Positions 6,257 through 23,261 of a stretch of 34,046 nt of DNA are shown piece after piece. The stretch spans positions 1-34,046 of the forward strand of contig JAFRKV010000051.1 in NCBI GenBank assembly GCA_017431515.1, in the 5' to 3' direction. Below the pieces are notes generated by a model, which did no database searches, was not told where the DNA came from, and was given only the letters and a program-made list of their open reading frames with translations. A program made the position numbers and the translations under genes. This stretch comes from Lachnospiraceae bacterium (lineage in GTDB: Bacteria; Bacillota; Clostridia; Lachnospirales; Lachnospiraceae). Numbering within the stretch: position 1 is the first letter of the stretch; every line of letters begins with the position of its first letter.

Positions 6257-6687
6257 ACATCAGCGGAATTCAGGAAGGGTTTGTACTGGACCACATCAAA
6301 GCCGGCATGAGTCTGGATATCTACCACGACCTGCATTTAGATAAGCTGGACTGTACCGTCGCGATCATCAAGAACGCGCGCAGCCAGAAAATGGGAAAGA
6401 AGGACATCATTAAGGTGGAATGCCCCATCGACGCACTGGATCTGGACATTCTCGGCTTCATCGATCACAACATCACCGTGAACGTCATCAAAAATGACCG
6501 GATCGTGGAGAAGAAAAAACTGGAGCTTCCGAAGACGATCCGCAACGTGATCCGCTGTACAAATCCGCGCTGTATCACCTCCATCGAGCAGGAACTGGAG
6601 CAGGTCTTCGTACTGACAAACCCGGCGAAGGAAATCTACCGGTGCAAGTATTGCGAAACGAAGTATAAGGGGAAGAAGTTTCATTAA
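6250..6687 (+). CDS. pyrI: Aspartate carbamoyltransferase, regulatory chain
   Basis: This 145-residue subunit binds CTP/ATP and gives the PyrB holoenzyme its allosteric control. The N-terminal nucleotide-binding domain is followed by a zinc domain with four cysteines arranged CxxxxC (RCTNPRC) and CxxC (RCKYC) near the C-terminus, which contacts PyrB. The ATG lies inside the last codons of pyrB (seven-base overlap). PyrI implies a dodecameric, feedback-regulated ATCase, as in many Clostridia and enterobacteria but unlike Bacillus. Confidence 0.96.
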
Positions 6688-6707
6688 AATTCCTGCATAT
6701 CATGACA

Positions 6708-6758
6708 TTGAGGTCAGGAGTGCTATGCGATTGAGTCGCTGCGCACTTTTGACCTCAA
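6708..6758. terminator. Long hairpin between convergent genes, possible bidirectional terminator
   Basis: TTGAGGTCA (6708-6716) pairs perfectly with TGACCTCAA (6750-6758). The stem continues through AGTGC/GCACT, and a small inner GCGA/TCGC stem closes the loop. It sits in the 92-base gap between pyrI (plus) and the 1053-residue gene (minus). No clear U-run follows on either strand, so it could be a terminator for both genes or a mobile palindromic unit marking the edge of the accessory block. Confidence 0.6.
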
Positions 6759-6779
6759 CATCTTTGCATGATTTCATGA

Positions 6780-9700
6780 TCATCCTGCCTTCTTGAAAAT
6801 CGCGCTCTGCAGAGGATTTGCAAGAAACGTCTTTCTGGCTTCCTTCCCGTCACCATACTCTTCGTGATGCCATCTCTTATCCTTTCGTTTCTTCACTTCC
6901 TCATTAAAGGCCCGGTCCTCCTCCTCGATCTTTGCAAGCTTCGAAAACTCCTGCTGCCCGAAGAGATAGTTTTCATTGTCGATGGAAAGATACGTGCTGC
7001 CGGGATCCACGGAAAGCTGGGAGAGATCGTTTATCTTGTCGTAGTCCCCATCCTCTGCTTTCAGGAAAAACCTGCCCTGTGGCGTATCCGATTTCCAACC
7101 TGCCAGTCTGAAGAATGCCTCTGCCTTTTCCCTGGCAGTTTCAAGGTGGGACAGGATATCCTGGCAGCGCTTTTTGATCCCTTTCACCTTCGCCTCGGAA
7201 AAATTCAAAAGTTTGAGATCCGCTTCCATCTGCGGGTCATCCCGGGTTGCGATTTCGCGAATCTGCTTATACGCCACATAGTCAAAGTGCAGCATCGATG
7301 GGATCTCCAGATCTCCGTTTTCATTGCTGAGGGTATTCATATCCTTTCTTCGCTGCTCCATCTCTTCTTCCGTATACTCTTTCTCCGTAGATCCTGCTGC
7401 CAGCTCCGCCACGTCCGGATCCTCCCGAAAGAGATTGGCATACGCGTACAGCATATTCTGGATCCAGTAATCCAGGAACCCGGAGTGAGATGCGCACCAC
7501 TGTCTGTCATAGGTATTTTTAGGGGTCAACGTGGAGAAATCATACTTTTCATTCAGTATGTGCAGTCTGTCCAGCAGCCGGAACACTTCCTGCTTCTCCT
7601 CTTTCTTCAGATCCGTCCGGAGACCGTTGGCAATGTTTTCCTTAGCCGTTCCATAACGCTTCGGATCCAGAATTTCTTTGAGTCCCGTAAAGATGGTTCC
7701 TAATTCCTGACTGACCTCTTCATACTCCTTCTCATCCGTTACCTCATTTTTCCCCTCCGGATACTTGGAGTCCTCTTTCATTTGATCCCGCTTGTAAATC
7801 GAACCGTACCAGTTCGCATCGCCCTCACCTTCCTTTGTCACAAAGGAAGTGAAGTCGCTATGCTTAAAGTGCATCAGAACTTGCCCCATGGACTTTTCCG
7901 GCTGCAGATTTTTAAACATTGTACTCGGAGCTTCCTTGATAGATTTATGTCGTCCGTACTCATTACTAAATCCCCTGAGAACCGGTTTGGTTGCCTTCTC
8001 GATCCAGTCCGGACATTTGATCCCGAAATACTTTTTGTTCACATACTTGTATTCCGCGCTCCCTTTTTTCAGGGTTTTATTCAGTCCCGGGAGAAATCCG
8101 TTTTTCTCCCCTGCAACGAGCTTTTCAATACTGCCTTCTCCAAAGGAATTGTCATGATCATAGGACATGATCTTTTTGATCACGATGGTGCCTTTCTCCT
8201 TGTCCTCATCAAATTCGCATTTGAAATTACGCCCATGGCGGTCTGTCTGATTGCATACAACATCAAACGCCTGCAGCCGCATGAGCTGCCGGACGGCATC
8301 CGGCGTGTAGTGAATCTTCATCTGTTCCTTTTCCGCCCGTTTGATGAGGTTTACAAACTCTTCCCCCTTGGCTTCCTTCATGACCGTGCAGAAACGCTCC
8401 ACCATTTGACCGTTTCGATCTTTAAATTTCACCACCCGGGTCTCCGACCCCGTGATGACATCCTCAAAGCCCATTTTCTTCGCAAGCTGATAGGTGGCGG
8501 TATTATTGGCGGCCGCGATCTCCTTGGCTTCGGAACCCTGGCGCTCTCTGATCTGGCCAAACAGCTCCACTTCCTTCCCCAGAGAAACCCGGAACAGTTT
8601 TCCGATGGCGTTCTCCGACTGATCCCGGAACACATTCAGGATATCCCTGTCCCTGTTGGCATCCAGACCCAGTTTTTTCGTGATCCATTCCAGCTCTGTC
8701 ATTTTTTTCAAAGGCTCACCTGCCCCGCCTCCCGCTGCCTCTCCCATATTATTCTTACGGTAGCTGCAGATATAGACTGCCACGCCATTTAATGGATGTT
8801 TCTTGTCCTTGGAAGCGGCTTCCCAATCCACATCAGTGTCATCCACATGATCCGCCGCGTAATTATGGGTTTCCAGTTCACTGAACATCTTGTCAAAATC
8901 ATGCGCCAGCAGGGAGACCACCTTTTCGCTGACAGCAGTACGGTTCGCGTCATCCGCACGGGTGATCCGCGTTTTCAGAGCCCGGATGAAAGACAGTGCC
9001 AGCTGGTAATCCGAAGCTCCCACATGGCCATCTTTCAGACGGCGCTCTTCCACATTCGCCCCGCGATTCTCACTGCTATAGTTCAGCTGTGTTTCTCTTC
9101 GATCCAGAAATCCGGAAATATCCTCACTGATCAGAGGGATATTCTCCTTAATGAAATAATTCTCACCGTTGTTAGTTGCCTTAATCTTATAAACATCCGT
9201 GGAATTTCCTTCATTCTGCCACTCTGTGGATCCTTCCTCTGCCTCTAAGGTCAAATGCTGCTCGGTAAGCTGCTGCAGGGATCGCTCCCTTAATATCTCC
9301 AGATTGTTCTCTTCCAACCCGGCCTTTACGGTAAGGGACTCCAACAGCGCACCAAACTTCAGTTTCTCTTCCATACAGCGTTTCCGCACTTCGTTCACAA
9401 GACCGAGGCGCCGGATTCCGGCAGAGTACTTCCCGCCGCCCTGCTCTCTCTTTTTTTTGAAATAGTTATCGCAGGCTGCCACGCACTCATCCAATGCCGT
9501 ATTCAGCTTTTCGCGAAGCTCCGGCACATCCACAAACTGCGCCCCATTCTCGTCCTCTTTGACATATTCGGAGAGATTTTGGGAGATCAGATTGGTAACC
9601 AGATTCAGGGTCTTCTTCACCCGAACCATTTCCGGTGAATCCTTTCCGGTGAAAAAGAGCCAGTTCCACTTGTCCGTGCTGAGCTTGGCGCTTAAGGCCT

Positions 9701-9941
9701 TAAATGCGCTATTTTCCGCCTGGCGCTTATTTTTATAGGACGTGCCGAAATCCGATTTCAGTGTCCGAAGGCGCTCCTGCGACTCGATATAGTCCTGGTT
9801 GATCTGGTTTTTGTTGGTCTCTCCGTGATACTCAAAAAGAGCAGCATCATAATTTCCCTTCACCTGATATGTTTCATGCTTTGAAAGTCGAATGGTACTG
9901 GTTGCCTTTCGAATCTGCTGTTGCTGTAATTGTTCATCCAT
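6780..9941 (-). CDS. Large protein with HipA/PI3-4-kinase-type catalytic motifs, function unknown
   Basis: The protein has 1053 residues, with no signal peptide and no membrane segments. The first 235 residues are charged and largely helical. A candidate ATP-binding lysine is Lys265 in NYFIKEN, and a possible alpha-C segment is SEAKEIAAANNTATYQLAK (about 470-488). The catalytic loop is NQTDRHGRNF with Asp567 and Asn572, spaced as in HipA and PI3/PI4 kinases (D-x4-N). The metal-binding motif YDHDNSFG has Asp595/Asp597, about 30 residues after the catalytic Asp. The remaining 440 residues are charged, mostly helical and unrecognised. The start follows GGGAGG. It lies 65 bases after a GNAT gene on the same strand. 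Kinase activity is inferred from motifs; the substrate could be a protein, lipid or nucleotide. Confidence 0.75.
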   Translation of the reverse strand: MDEQLQQQQIRKATSTIRLSKHETYQVKGNYDAALFEYHGETNKNQINQDYIESQERLRTLKSDFGTSYKNKRQAENSAFKALSAKLSTDKWNWLFFTGKDSPEMVRVKKTLNLVTNLISQNLSEYVKEDENGAQFVDVPELREKLNTALDECVAACDNYFKKKREQGGGKYSAGIRRLGLVNEVRKRCMEEKLKFGALLESLTVKAGLEENNLEILRERSLQQLTEQHLTLEAEEGSTEWQNEGNSTDVYKIKATNNGENYFIKENIPLISEDISGFLDRRETQLNYSSENRGANVEERRLKDGHVGASDYQLALSFIRALKTRITRADDANRTAVSEKVVSLLAHDFDKMFSELETHNYAADHVDDTDVDWEAASKDKKHPLNGVAVYICSYRKNNMGEAAGGGAGEPLKKMTELEWITKKLGLDANRDRDILNVFRDQSENAIGKLFRVSLGKEVELFGQIRERQGSEAKEIAAANNTATYQLAKKMGFEDVITGSETRVVKFKDRNGQMVERFCTVMKEAKGEEFVNLIKRAEKEQMKIHYTPDAVRQLMRLQAFDVVCNQTDRHGRNFKCEFDEDKEKGTIVIKKIMSYDHDNSFGEGSIEKLVAGEKNGFLPGLNKTLKKGSAEYKYVNKKYFGIKCPDWIEKATKPVLRGFSNEYGRHKSIKEAPSTMFKNLQPEKSMGQVLMHFKHSDFTSFVTKEGEGDANWYGSIYKRDQMKEDSKYPEGKNEVTDEKEYEEVSQELGTIFTGLKEILDPKRYGTAKENIANGLRTDLKKEEKQEVFRLLDRLHILNEKYDFSTLTPKNTYDRQWCASHSGFLDYWIQNMLYAYANLFREDPDVAELAAGSTEKEYTEEEMEQRRKDMNTLSNENGDLEIPSMLHFDYVAYKQIREIATRDDPQMEADLKLLNFSEAKVKGIKKRCQDILSHLETAREKAEAFFRLAGWKSDTPQGRFFLKAEDGDYDKINDLSQLSVDPGSTYLSIDNENYLFGQQEFSKLAKIEEEDRAFNEEVKKRKDKRWHHEEYGDGKEARKTFLANPLQSAIFKKAG

Positions 9942-10006
9942 TGTTTTTTCCTCCCTCTTCTGAGAAAAGACCGATTACTATGCTTCGGCTGTGATACTCT
10001 GACCGC

Positions 10007-10984
10007 CTAGGAATTGAAGTATTCCACGCCGGTTACCCGTAGTCTCTCCGGAATCTCATCCCTGTTCTGGTCCGCCTCCGAGCGGATGCGTTCCTCCTCG
10101 AAAAATCGCTGCGTCATCCTTTCTGCAGCGTCAAAAGAAGCCTCATAAAGTCTCGTGACGATCCGTGTACGGATCTTGAATAATTGCATCATCTCTGAAA
10201 GCGGATCCCCCTCCCGCAAAGTGAGGGAAATCAGTCCGTCACCCTCTGAATCGTTGAACGCTTCCGTAAGCACCGCGGAAAAAAGCGTCTGCCGGATTTC
10301 CTCCGGTATTTCCCGATCTCCATGAAAAAACTCCAATGGATAATAAGTAGATGCCACCTTTCTGACCGGAACTGCGCACCGAAGCTTGCCGTCTTCCAAA
10401 AATACGAGGCTGGTTCTCAGATCCTGCGTGGCTGCCGCCTCCGATCCGAAAATCTTTTCTATCCGCTTCTTTACTTTTTTCAGTACTTCCTCAGGAAGTT
10501 TCGAAAAAGATTTGATCGAAGGATTCAAAACGTCTTTTGCGGCAAGGGTTTTCTTTTTCAATTCGTCAAGGTACAGCAGCACCTCCGCACTTTCCCCGGG
10601 TACAGGCAGAAAGCCCCGATCCGCAAGATAACCATCCAGAGTATATCCCTCCGGTACTTTTGTGTTTTTCGTCTCCTTTATCAAAACCCTGCTCCAAAAA
10701 CGTACTTTTTTCCGATTATCTGCTGCCAGTTTGAACGCGACTCTGAGCAGGCGGTCTCCGTATCCGCATCCCCGATACTCCTCCGCTACAGCAAGCCAAT
10801 ATACGTCAAAGGACTCCGCCTCCTCCCTGAGAATCAATAGTCCCGCCGCCTCAGCACCCTCCGGCGTTTTCTGAAGCAGTCCGAAAGGCGTCAGTTCTTC
10901 TCTGTAAAGAAGCGACTGCAGCTCGGGGGGCAAGAGCTCTTCATAATAAACACGGTTGGCAGGCTCAATTCTTAAAATGTCCAT
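10007..10984 (-). CDS. GNAT-family N-acetyltransferase, probably two tandem domains
   Basis: This 325-residue protein begins with a GNAT fold. Motif A is VYWLAVAEEYRGCGYGDRLL, where RGCGYG matches the acetyl-CoA pyrophosphate loop (R/Q-x-x-G-x-G/A). The following beta strand contains VRFWSR. Residues from about 150 to the end have no clear motif but have alternating strand/helix character and could be a degenerate second GNAT domain. The start follows AAGGAG. It is the first gene of a two-gene unit with the kinase-like gene, so it may acetylate that protein or share its substrate; this is inference. A promoter is visible upstream at 11034-11062. Confidence 0.8.
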   Translation of the reverse strand: MDILRIEPANRVYYEELLPPELQSLLYREELTPFGLLQKTPEGAEAAGLLILREEAESFDVYWLAVAEEYRGCGYGDRLLRVAFKLAADNRKKVRFWSRVLIKETKNTKVPEGYTLDGYLADRGFLPVPGESAEVLLYLDELKKKTLAAKDVLNPSIKSFSKLPEEVLKKVKKRIEKIFGSEAAATQDLRTSLVFLEDGKLRCAVPVRKVASTYYPLEFFHGDREIPEEIRQTLFSAVLTEAFNDSEGDGLISLTLREGDPLSEMMQLFKIRTRIVTRLYEASFDAAERMTQRFFEEERIRSEADQNRDEIPERLRVTGVEYFNS

Positions 10985-11033
10985 AGATTCTCCTTCCTGT
11001 GAAAAACAAGTGCATTTTTCTGCCTCTTATTAC

Positions 11034-11062
11034 TTTGTACGATGATTCTGAACCGGTGGCAA
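11034..11062 (-). promoter_or_regulatory. Candidate promoter of the GNAT/kinase-like unit
   Basis: On the minus strand TTGCCA (11057-11062) and TACAAA (11034-11039) are 17 bases apart, about 50 bases before the GNAT start. The -35 is good and the -10 is weak. Confidence 0.45.
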
Positions 11063-11104
11063 AAAAAACAACACAATCAAAGATCATTTGGGGATTTCTG
11101 TGAG

Positions 11105-11185
11105 AACCGGGGTCCCGAACGGTTCCGGTTTTGGATAAACGGCAGGATTTCAGAAAACACTTTTCGCAGCGCTTCTAAATCCTGC
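11105..11185 (-). terminator. Two inverted repeats after the J-domain gene
   Basis: GCAGGATTT (11142-11150) pairs with AAATCCTGC (11177-11185), a 9-base perfect stem that spans the stop codon of the J-domain gene with a 26-base loop. Further on, AACCGG (11105-11110) pairs with CCGGTT (11125-11130). Neither is followed by a convincing U-run, so a terminator role is tentative. Confidence 0.4.
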
Positions 11186-11609
11186 AGCAGCAATTACAAA
11201 ACAGATTGATCAGCAGCATACTGATACACCAGCTTCCCGTTGAGGAATAGGGTCTCCCATAGCCCTGAGACATGTTCCGGTACCAGTCTTCCTGATTCTG
11301 GTAGCCGCCGCTGCCTCCGTAGCCGAAGGGATTGCCGCCGCTGCCGTCCGCATTGCGGTAGCCGCCGTAAGGGTTGCCGTTTCCCTGGCCGTAATTCTGC
11401 CCGGTAAACCCCTGCTGACGCATCTTCATGATCTGATCATACGCCGCCTGGATCTGCTTGAACCGTTCCTCCGCCTGTTCCTTGTTGGGATTATTGACAT
11501 TGGCATCCGGATGATACTTCCGGCTGAGATTGCGATATGCGCGTTTTACTTCGTCGTCTGTGGCGTTCGACGGGACGCCGAGCACCTGATAAGGGTCAAA
11601 GAATGCCAT
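11175..11609 (-). CDS. J-domain (DnaJ-like) protein with Gly-rich and Cys-rich tail
   Basis: The 144-residue protein begins with a complete J domain (about 3-65) carrying the HPD motif in KYHPDAN, so it should stimulate an Hsp70 (DnaK). After it comes a Gly/Asn/Tyr-rich linker (about 70-115) and a short hydrophobic tail ending in a cysteine cluster (CNCCCRI), which might be a membrane or metal anchor. It lacks the DnaJ zinc fingers and substrate domain, so it is a specialised co-chaperone. It starts 6 bases after the DUF5685 gene. The pairing with DUF5685 recurs in Lachnospiraceae to my recollection, and suggests the two act together. Confidence 0.88.
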
Positions 11610-21248: not shown

Positions 21249-21350
21249 GGTGTTTTCATCTTGCAATGTCTCTCCTATTGCTGTAAAGTGAAAGTGCCTG
21301 CAACGCAGGGATGCGTCCCAAGCGTTTCCTTATCGGAAGGAGGATCTGCC

Positions 21351-23261
21351 ATGTCCTGGGCATATGCGTTTCATATCGTGTTCTATGTCTGTGCCCTGCT
21401 GATCTGCGGCACATGCCTTTTCTATACCATTTTTCGCAGGCGGGTCGCCCGGCTGCAAAACAAGCTCTATCTACTCATGCTTTCCATCGTGATTTTGAAT
21501 TCTGTCTGCGACATAATCTCGGTCATCGCCGAACCTTCCTCCATGACCAGCGATCCTGCGTTTCTGGTCATCCAGATCGCGCATTATTTGTATTTTTCCG
21601 TTCATTCCCTGCTGGCGCCGACGCTGTTGTTTTATGTCTGCTGTGTCAACGGCATGTTTCCGCAGCTGTCCCTGAGGCGTCGCATTGTCTATCTGCTCCC
21701 CTGTCTTGTCACGGTTTGTTTGGCGCTTTTGAACCCGCTGAATCACTGGGTCTATGGTTATGATGCAAACCGGCTGTTCCGGCGCAACTGGGCCGAGATG
21801 CTGATCTATGTGGCTGCCGCGGTTTATCTCGTGGGCTCTGTCATCTATCTGCTCTGGTTTTGGAACGCGGTCACGAGAAGAAGCCGCATCGCGCTGACCG
21901 GCGCTTTTGTGATCGTGATCACCGGTGTGCTGGTCCAGTTCTTCTTTATCGACATCAAAAGCGAGCTGCTGGGCGAAGCAATGGGACTGCTGTTCCTCCT
22001 GCTCATCGTGGAGAACGAGGACGACCGGCTGGATGTGGATACCAATACCTATAATCGGAAAGGCTTTCTTCTCGACATCCGGAATTTCATTCTGACCAAA
22101 CGTTCCTTCCATGTATTTATCATCAATGTTGTCAACACCGATATCGTGCGCCGCCTCACCGGTGCTTCCAATATGTCCACGCTGGCAAGGCTTGTCGCTT
22201 CCTATTTCCGGACGCTCGTGCCATCCTACCAGGTTTACCATACCAGCTATTCCACTTTTGCCCTGCTTTATTCCGGCGGCAAAAAGGAAGCCGACGCCAT
22301 CGCGGCAAACCTCGAGCAGCGCTTCCGCGAAAGCTGGGCCTGTCTCGATATCAGCATTATGCTGAACGCAGTTATCCTCTATGCCTCCGTGCCGGAGGAA
22401 CTGAAAACATCAGACGAGATCCTTTTGATGCTGGACAGCCCCTTCCCGAAATCCAGTGCGGGAGAAGTGCTGCACGGCGCGTCTCTGAACTATCTCATCC
22501 GTCGCGCTGACGTGGAAAAAGCGCTCCACACCGGCATTGCGGAGCATCGTTTCGAAGTGTACTACCAGCCGATCTACCGGATGAGCGATCTTTCCCTCCA
22601 CGGTGCGGAAGCATTGCTGCGCTTAAAAGACCCCGAGCTCGGATATATCCCGCCGGATGAATTCATCCCTGTGGCGGAACAGATCGGCATCATTGATGAG
22701 ATCGGGGATTTTGTGCTGCATGAGGTATGTCAATTCCTGCAAAGCGGCATCCCGCAGGAAAAAGGCATGGACTGCATCCATGTCAACCTGTCCGTGATCC
22801 AATGCATACAGGCCGGTTTTACGGAGCATGTCCTCTCTCTTGTTGACAGCTACCATCTTTCCCACAGTCTCATTAATTTCGAGATCACAGAGACGCTTGC
22901 CGCCAGCGATTACCAGACCCTTGCCAACGTGGTATCCGCGCTGCAGTCGCAGGGCTTCCGTTTCTCCATGGATGATTACGGCACGGGCTTTTCCAATATG
23001 CAGTCCATTTTTGAATTGAGTTTTGATGTGATCAAGATCGATAAGAGCATTCTCTGGGGTGCGGAAGCTGGCAGCATCGGAAAAGCGATCCTCGAAAACA
23101 GCGCCCGCATGATTAAGCAGATCGGAAAAGAAATCGTCGTGGAAGGCGTGGAAACCGATGCGCAGATCGAACTGCTGCGCGCCCTCGGCGTGGATTACCT
23201 CCAGGGGTATTATTTCTCCAAGCCGATTCCCCGGGATGCGCTCATCAAATTCCTTTCCTGA
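21351..23261 (+). CDS. Membrane c-di-GMP phosphodiesterase, degenerate GGDEF plus EAL
   Basis: The protein has 636 residues from the ATG that follows AAGGAGG with 7-base spacing; an upstream TTG at 21261 lacks a site. Residues 1-215 hold six or seven membrane helices, a likely sensor. Residues about 226-390 are a GGDEF domain whose signature is lost: the position of GGDEF reads SYSTF in YHTSYSTFALLY, so no cyclase activity is expected. The EAL domain (about 395-636) is intact: EAL at 420-422, Asn479 (HVNLS), Glu511 (FEITE), Asp541-Asp542 (DDYGTGFSN), Lys562 (IKIDKS) and Glu598/Glu601 (VEGVE). It should therefore hydrolyse c-di-GMP. Its 3' end overlaps the convergent YfhO-like gene by 52 bases. 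Confidence 0.93.
   Translation: MSWAYAFHIVFYVCALLICGTCLFYTIFRRRVARLQNKLYLLMLSIVILNSVCDIISVIAEPSSMTSDPAFLVIQIAHYLYFSVHSLLAPTLLFYVCCVNGMFPQLSLRRRIVYLLPCLVTVCLALLNPLNHWVYGYDANRLFRRNWAEMLIYVAAAVYLVGSVIYLLWFWNAVTRRSRIALTGAFVIVITGVLVQFFFIDIKSELLGEAMGLLFLLLIVENEDDRLDVDTNTYNRKGFLLDIRNFILTKRSFHVFIINVVNTDIVRRLTGASNMSTLARLVASYFRTLVPSYQVYHTSYSTFALLYSGGKKEADAIAANLEQRFRESWACLDISIMLNAVILYASVPEELKTSDEILLMLDSPFPKSSAGEVLHGASLNYLIRRADVEKALHTGIAEHRFEVYYQPIYRMSDLSLHGAEALLRLKDPELGYIPPDEFIPVAEQIGIIDEIGDFVLHEVCQFLQSGIPQEKGMDCIHVNLSVIQCIQAGFTEHVLSLVDSYHLSHSLINFEITETLAASDYQTLANVVSALQSQGFRFSMDDYGTGFSNMQSIFELSFDVIKIDKSILWGAEAGSIGKAILENSARMIKQIGKEIVVEGVETDAQIELLRALGVDYLQGYYFSKPIPRDALIKFLS

Follow-up and report, generated by a model that had tools for sequence, protein, structure and literature searches.

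A giant atypical kinase with a GNAT partner in Lachnospiraceae: a possible dispersed cargo module of a contractile injection system

Results

We analyzed a 34,046-nt stretch of DNA from a Lachnospiraceae bacterium (contig JAFRKV010000051.1 of assembly GCA_017431515.1; hereafter the window), which is the entire contig C2 of a 2.35-Mb genome that is 81.8% complete. An earlier note on this DNA had singled out two genes, and both open reading frames (ORFs) exist as it described them. They lie on the minus strand with 65 bp between them; the gene for a 325-residue, apparently two-lobed protein of the GNAT family comes first (10007..10984, minus strand) and is followed by the gene for a giant protein of 1053 residues that has the core of an atypical kinase (6780..9941, minus strand). 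We found that the GNAT family tracks a distant contractile injection system (CIS), a point absent from the earlier note, and we consider the association of the GNAT/giant family with CIS highly probable. We give about even odds to a reading in which the two form a dispersed cargo module, with the kinase as cargo of the CIS and the GNAT as the adaptor. Taken singly, the cargo status of the kinase is slightly favored, while the adaptor role of the GNAT falls just short of even.

The CIS locus of one genome (G041) encoded a sheath, a tube, two CIS_tube proteins, gp25, an AAA+ ATPase (with a winged-helix match below the Pfam cut-off) and a weak J-like baseplate match (2.3e-4); homologous genes surrounded the tube gene in G000, G307, G180, G614, G129 and G080. 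When the sheath was compared with the PDB, 9ezm ranked first (2e-109), followed by 8bky and 8bl4 (9e-96 and 4e-93, respectively), both of which we take to be structures of the Streptomyces CIS. Conserved proteins encoded at the 5' end of the CIS locus (L094:16420-18852 and L095:1035-5893) had predicted transmembrane (TM) or signal-like segments, and a membrane anchor is therefore possible.

The tube family PF06841 was detected in all nine of the chosen GNAT-rich genomes as opposed to 1 of 14 others. Among 200 genomes, 20 had a tube, and by our reading these fell into a single-hit class A (11 genomes) and a double-hit class B (9 genomes). Class A tubes occurred in 6 of the 8 GNAT genomes compared to 5 of the 192 others (p 1.5e-7), where a GNAT genome is one with a match that spans 200 or more positions at E <=1e-17, this threshold and the tube classes having been set after the tables were seen. 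The two GNAT genomes without a class A tube were 60% and 68% complete. Within genus g208, G614 had a tube and GNATs while the near-complete genomes G207, G573, G735 and G769 had neither, nor a kinase match at 1e-12; within genus g35, G351 had a tube and a GNAT and G034 (88% complete) had neither. The class B CIS, with two tube genes, was present in G016, G022, G054, G056, G076, G086, G106, G188 and G196, and none of these nine genomes gave a near-full-length two-lobed GNAT match. The GNAT genes also lay close to the tube gene: 29 of 66 matches were within 65 kb of it, as against 3.2 expected if evenly spread, in a count that covered six of the nine GNAT-rich genomes (G351, G331 (fragmented) and G080 were omitted), used matches with E <=~1e-12 over ~100 or more model positions and counted tandem copies singly. 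Homologues of the CIS ATPase were found beside kinases or GNATs at L024, L050, L052 (two) and L078.

The earlier note had proposed a check of whether the two genes co-occur in other genomes, and the partnership proved to be recurrent. By our reading of the gene maps, a GNAT adjoined the kinase at 10 of 16 loci in tube-bearing genomes and at 0 of 22 in tube-less genomes (p 1.7e-5); a few of these kinases are at contig ends, and the counts omit the pseudokinase locus L023, L059 of G342 (weak tube match) and L036, where a congener has its copy of the window pair. A paralogue of the kinase on contig C15 of the same genome is followed by two GNATs in a gene order opposite to that of the window pair, and three kinase-GNAT pairs occur at L027, where a single further ORF lies among them. 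The GNATs were highly divergent (11-20% identity to the window GNAT). Kinase-adjacent GNATs were scattered over the GNAT tree with mild clustering (11 changes versus a shuffled mean of 15.4-15.6, a value as low being reached in 2 to 5 of 500 shuffles), suggesting that partners have been exchanged. A GNAT profile at E <=1e-6 gave 26 matches in G307, which belongs to the same genus, and 12 in the genome of the window, ordinary GNATs included, and the stricter counts (E <=~1e-12, at least ~100 positions) were 19 and 12.

The window GNAT matched Acetyltransf_1 with 23.5 bits, above the Pfam cut-off of 20.7, and its first lobe contains the acetyl-CoA loop R-G-C-G-Y-G. The putative second lobe (residues ~150-325) would be degenerate. 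The best PDB match of a lobe-2 profile was an N-acetyltransferase at a weak E of 0.013, which hints that the second half of the protein resembles a second, degenerate GNAT lobe, a weak likeness also absent from the earlier note. A single-sequence AlphaFold model of the GNAT had a mean predicted local distance difference test (pLDDT) score of 36, too low to read a fold. A loose pattern for the acetyl-CoA loop was present in 43 of 62 GNATs, that of the window included, although a few of them seem to match spuriously. The loop was missing from 19 of the 62, so the activity has perhaps been lost; in one 13-member clade, with a Shimodaira-Hasegawa-like approximate likelihood-ratio test (SH-aLRT) value of 100 in a quick tree, 12 of the 13 members lacked it. 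Among the ORFs fetched, the tail P-x-R-x-R-V-x3-E-Y occurred in the window GNAT, the congener's copy and a short GNAT of L022 only. Since the GNATs that share it are paired with the two closest kinases, this C-terminal tail is a candidate contact with the kinase. Loop-less GNATs at L064, L065, L073, L079, L081, L082 and L094 adjoin or lie near membrane proteins of ~350 residues that by eye resemble degenerate GGDEF sensors, and an EAL protein of the window (21261-23261) has a stretch in common with these GGDEF-like proteins. SpoIIE-type phosphatases or homologues were present near modules at L021, L024, L028, L037, L039, L045, L057, L063, L069, L071 and L072, and some of them carry Cache sensor domains.

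Many GNATs were found beside ORFs of 700-2500 residues. Across all the loci fetched, a same-strand adjacent ORF of at least 550 residues was seen for 41 of 62 GNATs; the two control sets gave 35 of 119 and 18 of 63. The domains of these giants include a FAM20-like kinase, an ABC1/APH-like kinase (L062, L057) and calpain (L039, L060, L071), and their N-terminal parts are common to giants in varied combinations. At L040 kinase and calpain homology occurred in a single protein, and the hand-delimited helical domain preceding the kinase recurred in an ABC1-type giant (3.5e-9, L075). Pfam at 1e-3 gave no match in 10 of the 13 long ORFs scanned. The fraction of glutamine plus asparagine (Q+N) in the first 80 residues was 0.150 in 37 giants beside GNATs as compared to 0.081 in 62 controls (p 4e-8), and it was 0.107 in 34 long ORFs of tube-less loci. 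The set of 37 excludes ten long GNAT neighbors that we judged to be housekeeping or signaling proteins, some of them unannotated, and with these ten restored the fraction was 0.136 (p 1.8e-6).

The 1053-residue protein has a Q/N-rich start (MDEQLQQQQ), a helical domain at residues ~104-268 and a kinase profile match at 449-695; its key residues are D567, N572, D595 and D597, with Lys265 as the candidate N-lobe lysine. A simple hydropathy scan detected no TM segments in either the kinase or the GNAT. Pfam HipA_C matched residues 477-573 below threshold (21.8 bits versus a cut-off of 30.5, E 1.7e-4). The C-lobe core (7857..8597, minus strand) was an input of a family alignment (A3) of 41 of the 47 kinase domains, the six degenerate domains being omitted, in which D560, D567, R568 and N572 were invariant. 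The A3 profile matched FAM20C (1.6e-6), PI4K2-alpha (6.8e-6) and FAM20A in the PDB while CtkA was reached at just 0.37, and the coverage was of the C-lobe alone. Recounted over all 47 domains, D560 was kept in 46, D567 in 44, R568 in 46, N572 in 44, G526 in 44, D595 in 42 and D597 in 39. The non-conserved cases were mostly second domains of double-kinase proteins together with the divergent L040 and L052 copies.

Judged by its sequence, the window protein is thus a divergent atypical kinase of the HipA/PI4K/FAM20 kind and belongs to a Lachnospiraceae family, as the earlier note had supposed, with FAM20C and PI4K type II as the nearest profile matches; it is likely to have kinase activity. The conservation of D567, N572 and D597 that the note had proposed to check was largely borne out, degenerate domains excepted. 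Lys265, which it had treated as a defining residue, found no support as such: this place was K/R in 17 of 25 kinases from tube genomes and F-T in 20 of the 25 others, by a loose pattern and with an uncertain N-lobe alignment, suggesting that the lysine is not universal across the family. A single-sequence AlphaFold model of residues 225-699 had a mean pLDDT of 38, again too low to read a fold.

A protein search with the window kinase gave matches in 10 of 200 genomes of the same taxonomic family, and a match at 1e-12 was found in 4 of 391 genomes of the class, three of the four being in Lachnospiraceae. A profile of 17 kinase cores matched 91 of 397 genomes at E <=1e-3, 20 of them more strongly than 1e-15 by our count, and many of the weak matches fall in shorter ORFs. 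The closest kinase found outside the genus was that of L022 in G180 (36% over residues 63-660). A 928-residue relative at L023:5770-8556 is without the catalytic-loop and metal motifs (a pseudokinase) and lies among four GNATs of the partner family. We built a kinase tree of 50 rows, omitting domains shorter than 190 residues or weaker than 1e-15 and skipping all but one of the L038 copies of L037 genes. Tube presence required 2 changes on this tree versus a shuffled mean of 17.0, and 0 of 500 shuffles were as low. One starred clade held 24 of the 25 tube-less rows, while L035 sat among the tube rows. The tube-less kinases (L028-L035 without L031, L041-L049, L053-L056 and L058) often had F-T at the place of the lysine, and some were double-kinase proteins.

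Most other genes of the window have housekeeping roles; among them are pyrBI, dnaG, trmK and one for a sigma-70 factor. The two genes are richer in AT than their surroundings, as the earlier note had remarked (GC of 49-50% versus 54% in the remaining window). A 99% match was contig CACZBF010000030.1 of the Lachnospiraceae metagenome-assembled genome (MAG) RUG12461, whose RUG prefix presumably denotes rumen genomes, and a related-locus search over genome contigs with the window locus found a congener alone. Base differences between the window and the congener were 97 of 954 in pyrB, 67 of 438 in pyrI, 13 of 3162 in the kinase gene and 5 of 978 in the GNAT gene. The near-identical segment (6683..11580; the right edge is approximate, with one dip near 11350) is ~99.6% identical as opposed to ~80-90% in the flanks, and between the two genomes the listed aligned pieces of the CIS loci and of further module loci were 64-93% identical. 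Because the pair is near-identical while its flanks and the other module loci have diverged, we conclude that the kinase, the GNAT and most of a J-domain gene (11175..11609, minus strand) were recently exchanged between the two species as a unit, which bears out the accessory character that had been ascribed to the pair. A chimeric MAG is a caveat to this conclusion; yet both contigs continue into diverged flanks. Most of the J-domain gene falls within the exchanged segment, so this gene may be mobile together with the module. The "long palindrome" of the earlier note does exist at 6708..6758, in the gap from pyrI to the kinase stop and a little inside the left breakpoint, but it is an imperfect inverted repeat of just 23 nt, 78% complementary and without a T-run.

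Discussion

If the kinase is cargo, it would be a cytoplasmic effector that is made in the producer and held there by its cognate two-lobed GNAT. The kinase would be loaded into the phage-tail-like tube through its N-terminal region, a step in which a Pvc15-type AAA+ ATPase probably takes part; after delivery into a target cell the kinase would phosphorylate a protein or a small molecule. The GNAT would serve as an effector-specific adaptor or chaperone whose acetyltransferase activity has been either kept to modify the effector or lost. As a guess, the target cells may be rumen protists or rival bacteria. We put forward more tentatively that these modules constitute an interchangeable, dispersed arsenal of giant effectors, among them kinases and calpain-like proteases, each with its own two-lobed active or pseudo-GNAT, and hence a new class of cargo and adaptor in some Lachnospiraceae.

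Several observations weigh against delivery by the CIS. Class A tubes occurred without a two-lobed GNAT at 1e-12 in G085, G104, G149 and G176, and a fifth such genome, G174, gave just a weak GNAT match on a short ORF. The other 37 of the 66 GNAT matches, the window pair included, lie away from the tube or on other contigs. A long same-strand neighbor was present for 4 of 9 control ORFs of the window itself and for just 21 of 36 GNATs at loci fetched for the GNAT alone, and some long neighbors are no effectors (DNA polymerase III at L064, an SbcC-like protein at L067 and SpoIIE at L069 and L071). TM-like segments were found in 2 of the 37 giants. The motif MD-x1-2-[LIV] occurred near the start of 12 of 37 giants versus 6 of 159 other long ORFs, but it was picked by eye after the data had been seen and the start codons are predicted; of the six ORFs outside the set, five look like giants, including one overlapping duplicate of a gene already counted. 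The kinase tree placed 4 of the 25 tube rows, on weak branches, on the tube-less side of a weak root split. Strong kinase matches were also present in 11 genomes without a tube match, so the kinase domain alone is no marker of CIS cargo, and we ruled it out as the sole mark. DUF4157, which PMC8213781 describes as often linked to toxins of extracellular CIS (eCIS), was absent from all the proteins scanned with Pfam.

The main rival explanation, which we regard as unlikely, is that the proteins form a cytoplasmic signaling network that controls how the CIS is assembled or fired, or else some other cell process, and are not cargo. A SpoIIE-containing neighbor cluster at 10 of the 41 loci compared argues for the network, as do the HATPase near the kinase paralogue of the same genome, which we take to be RsbW-like, and the degenerate-GGDEF-like membrane sensors, read by eye, beside pseudo-GNATs; the pseudokinase relative at L023 would fit a network as well. 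On the other hand, 4 to 19 GNAT copies per genome (stricter count), the large size and modular build of giants that carry protease or unrelated kinase domains, and rapid divergence with exchange between species all suit cargo better, and a scan of the genes surrounding the window pair revealed no such phosphatase or RsbW-like ATPase.

Less likely still, the GNAT may acetylate the neighboring kinase, by whatever route the latter is delivered, and so either silence it in the producer, which would amount to immunity by modification, or activate it. The loose loop pattern in most GNATs, that of the window among them, and the presence of a GNAT beside each kinase at many loci are consistent with acetylation, whereas the lack of the loop in 19 of the 62, among them all but one of the 13 members of the SH-aLRT 100 clade, argues against it. 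HipA acts as a toxin kinase, some toxins are GNATs, and the pair is accessory and exchanged; nevertheless, a stand-alone toxin-antitoxin or anti-phage defense pair, one of the roles suggested in the earlier note, is very improbable given that PADLOC had no match for either protein, which led us to reject a known defense system, and that the GNAT family lies beside many unrelated giants and tracks the CIS.

Among known enzymes, the kinase is most like FAM20C, FAM20A, FAM20B and PI4K type II, with which it has in common the D-R-H-x2-N catalytic loop and the D-x-D/N metal motif in identical order; HipA and CtkA are more distant. Unlike FAM20 and PI4K proteins, members of the window family are large, show no export signal, include long helical stretches and apparently vary at the N-lobe lysine. 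The sheath of the Streptomyces CIS is among the closest to the Lachnospiraceae one in the PDB, but that CIS belongs to another phylum, and we know of no such effector modules for it. The cargo reading has a parallel in the Photorhabdus virulence cassette (PVC), in which payloads are loaded by the AAA ATPase Pvc15, according to passages of PMC11495950. As in the PVC, the locus combines genes for a contractile particle with one for an AAA+ ATPase, homologues of this ATPase lie beside some of the kinases, and the N-termini are distinctive. In contrast to the PVC, the modules described here are dispersed and have a GNAT partner, none being mentioned in those passages of PMC11495950, and here both the particle and its loading are predictions from genes.

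Among the papers listed by a full-text literature search, with most subscription papers and all preprints outside its coverage, none was found to describe such a kinase-GNAT-CIS module. The main text of PMC8213781 has none of the words "Lachnospiraceae", "Clostridia", "acetyltransferase" and "calpain", and PMC10266427, in the part considered, mentions CIS in a reference alone. If the cargo reading is true, anaerobic Firmicutes of the gut and rumen would own an injection machine with many large effectors. The GNATs would then be an adaptor family previously undescribed, as far as we have searched, and their genes a handle for finding effectors, and the FAM20/PI4K-like kinases would exert their activity in trans, on other cells.

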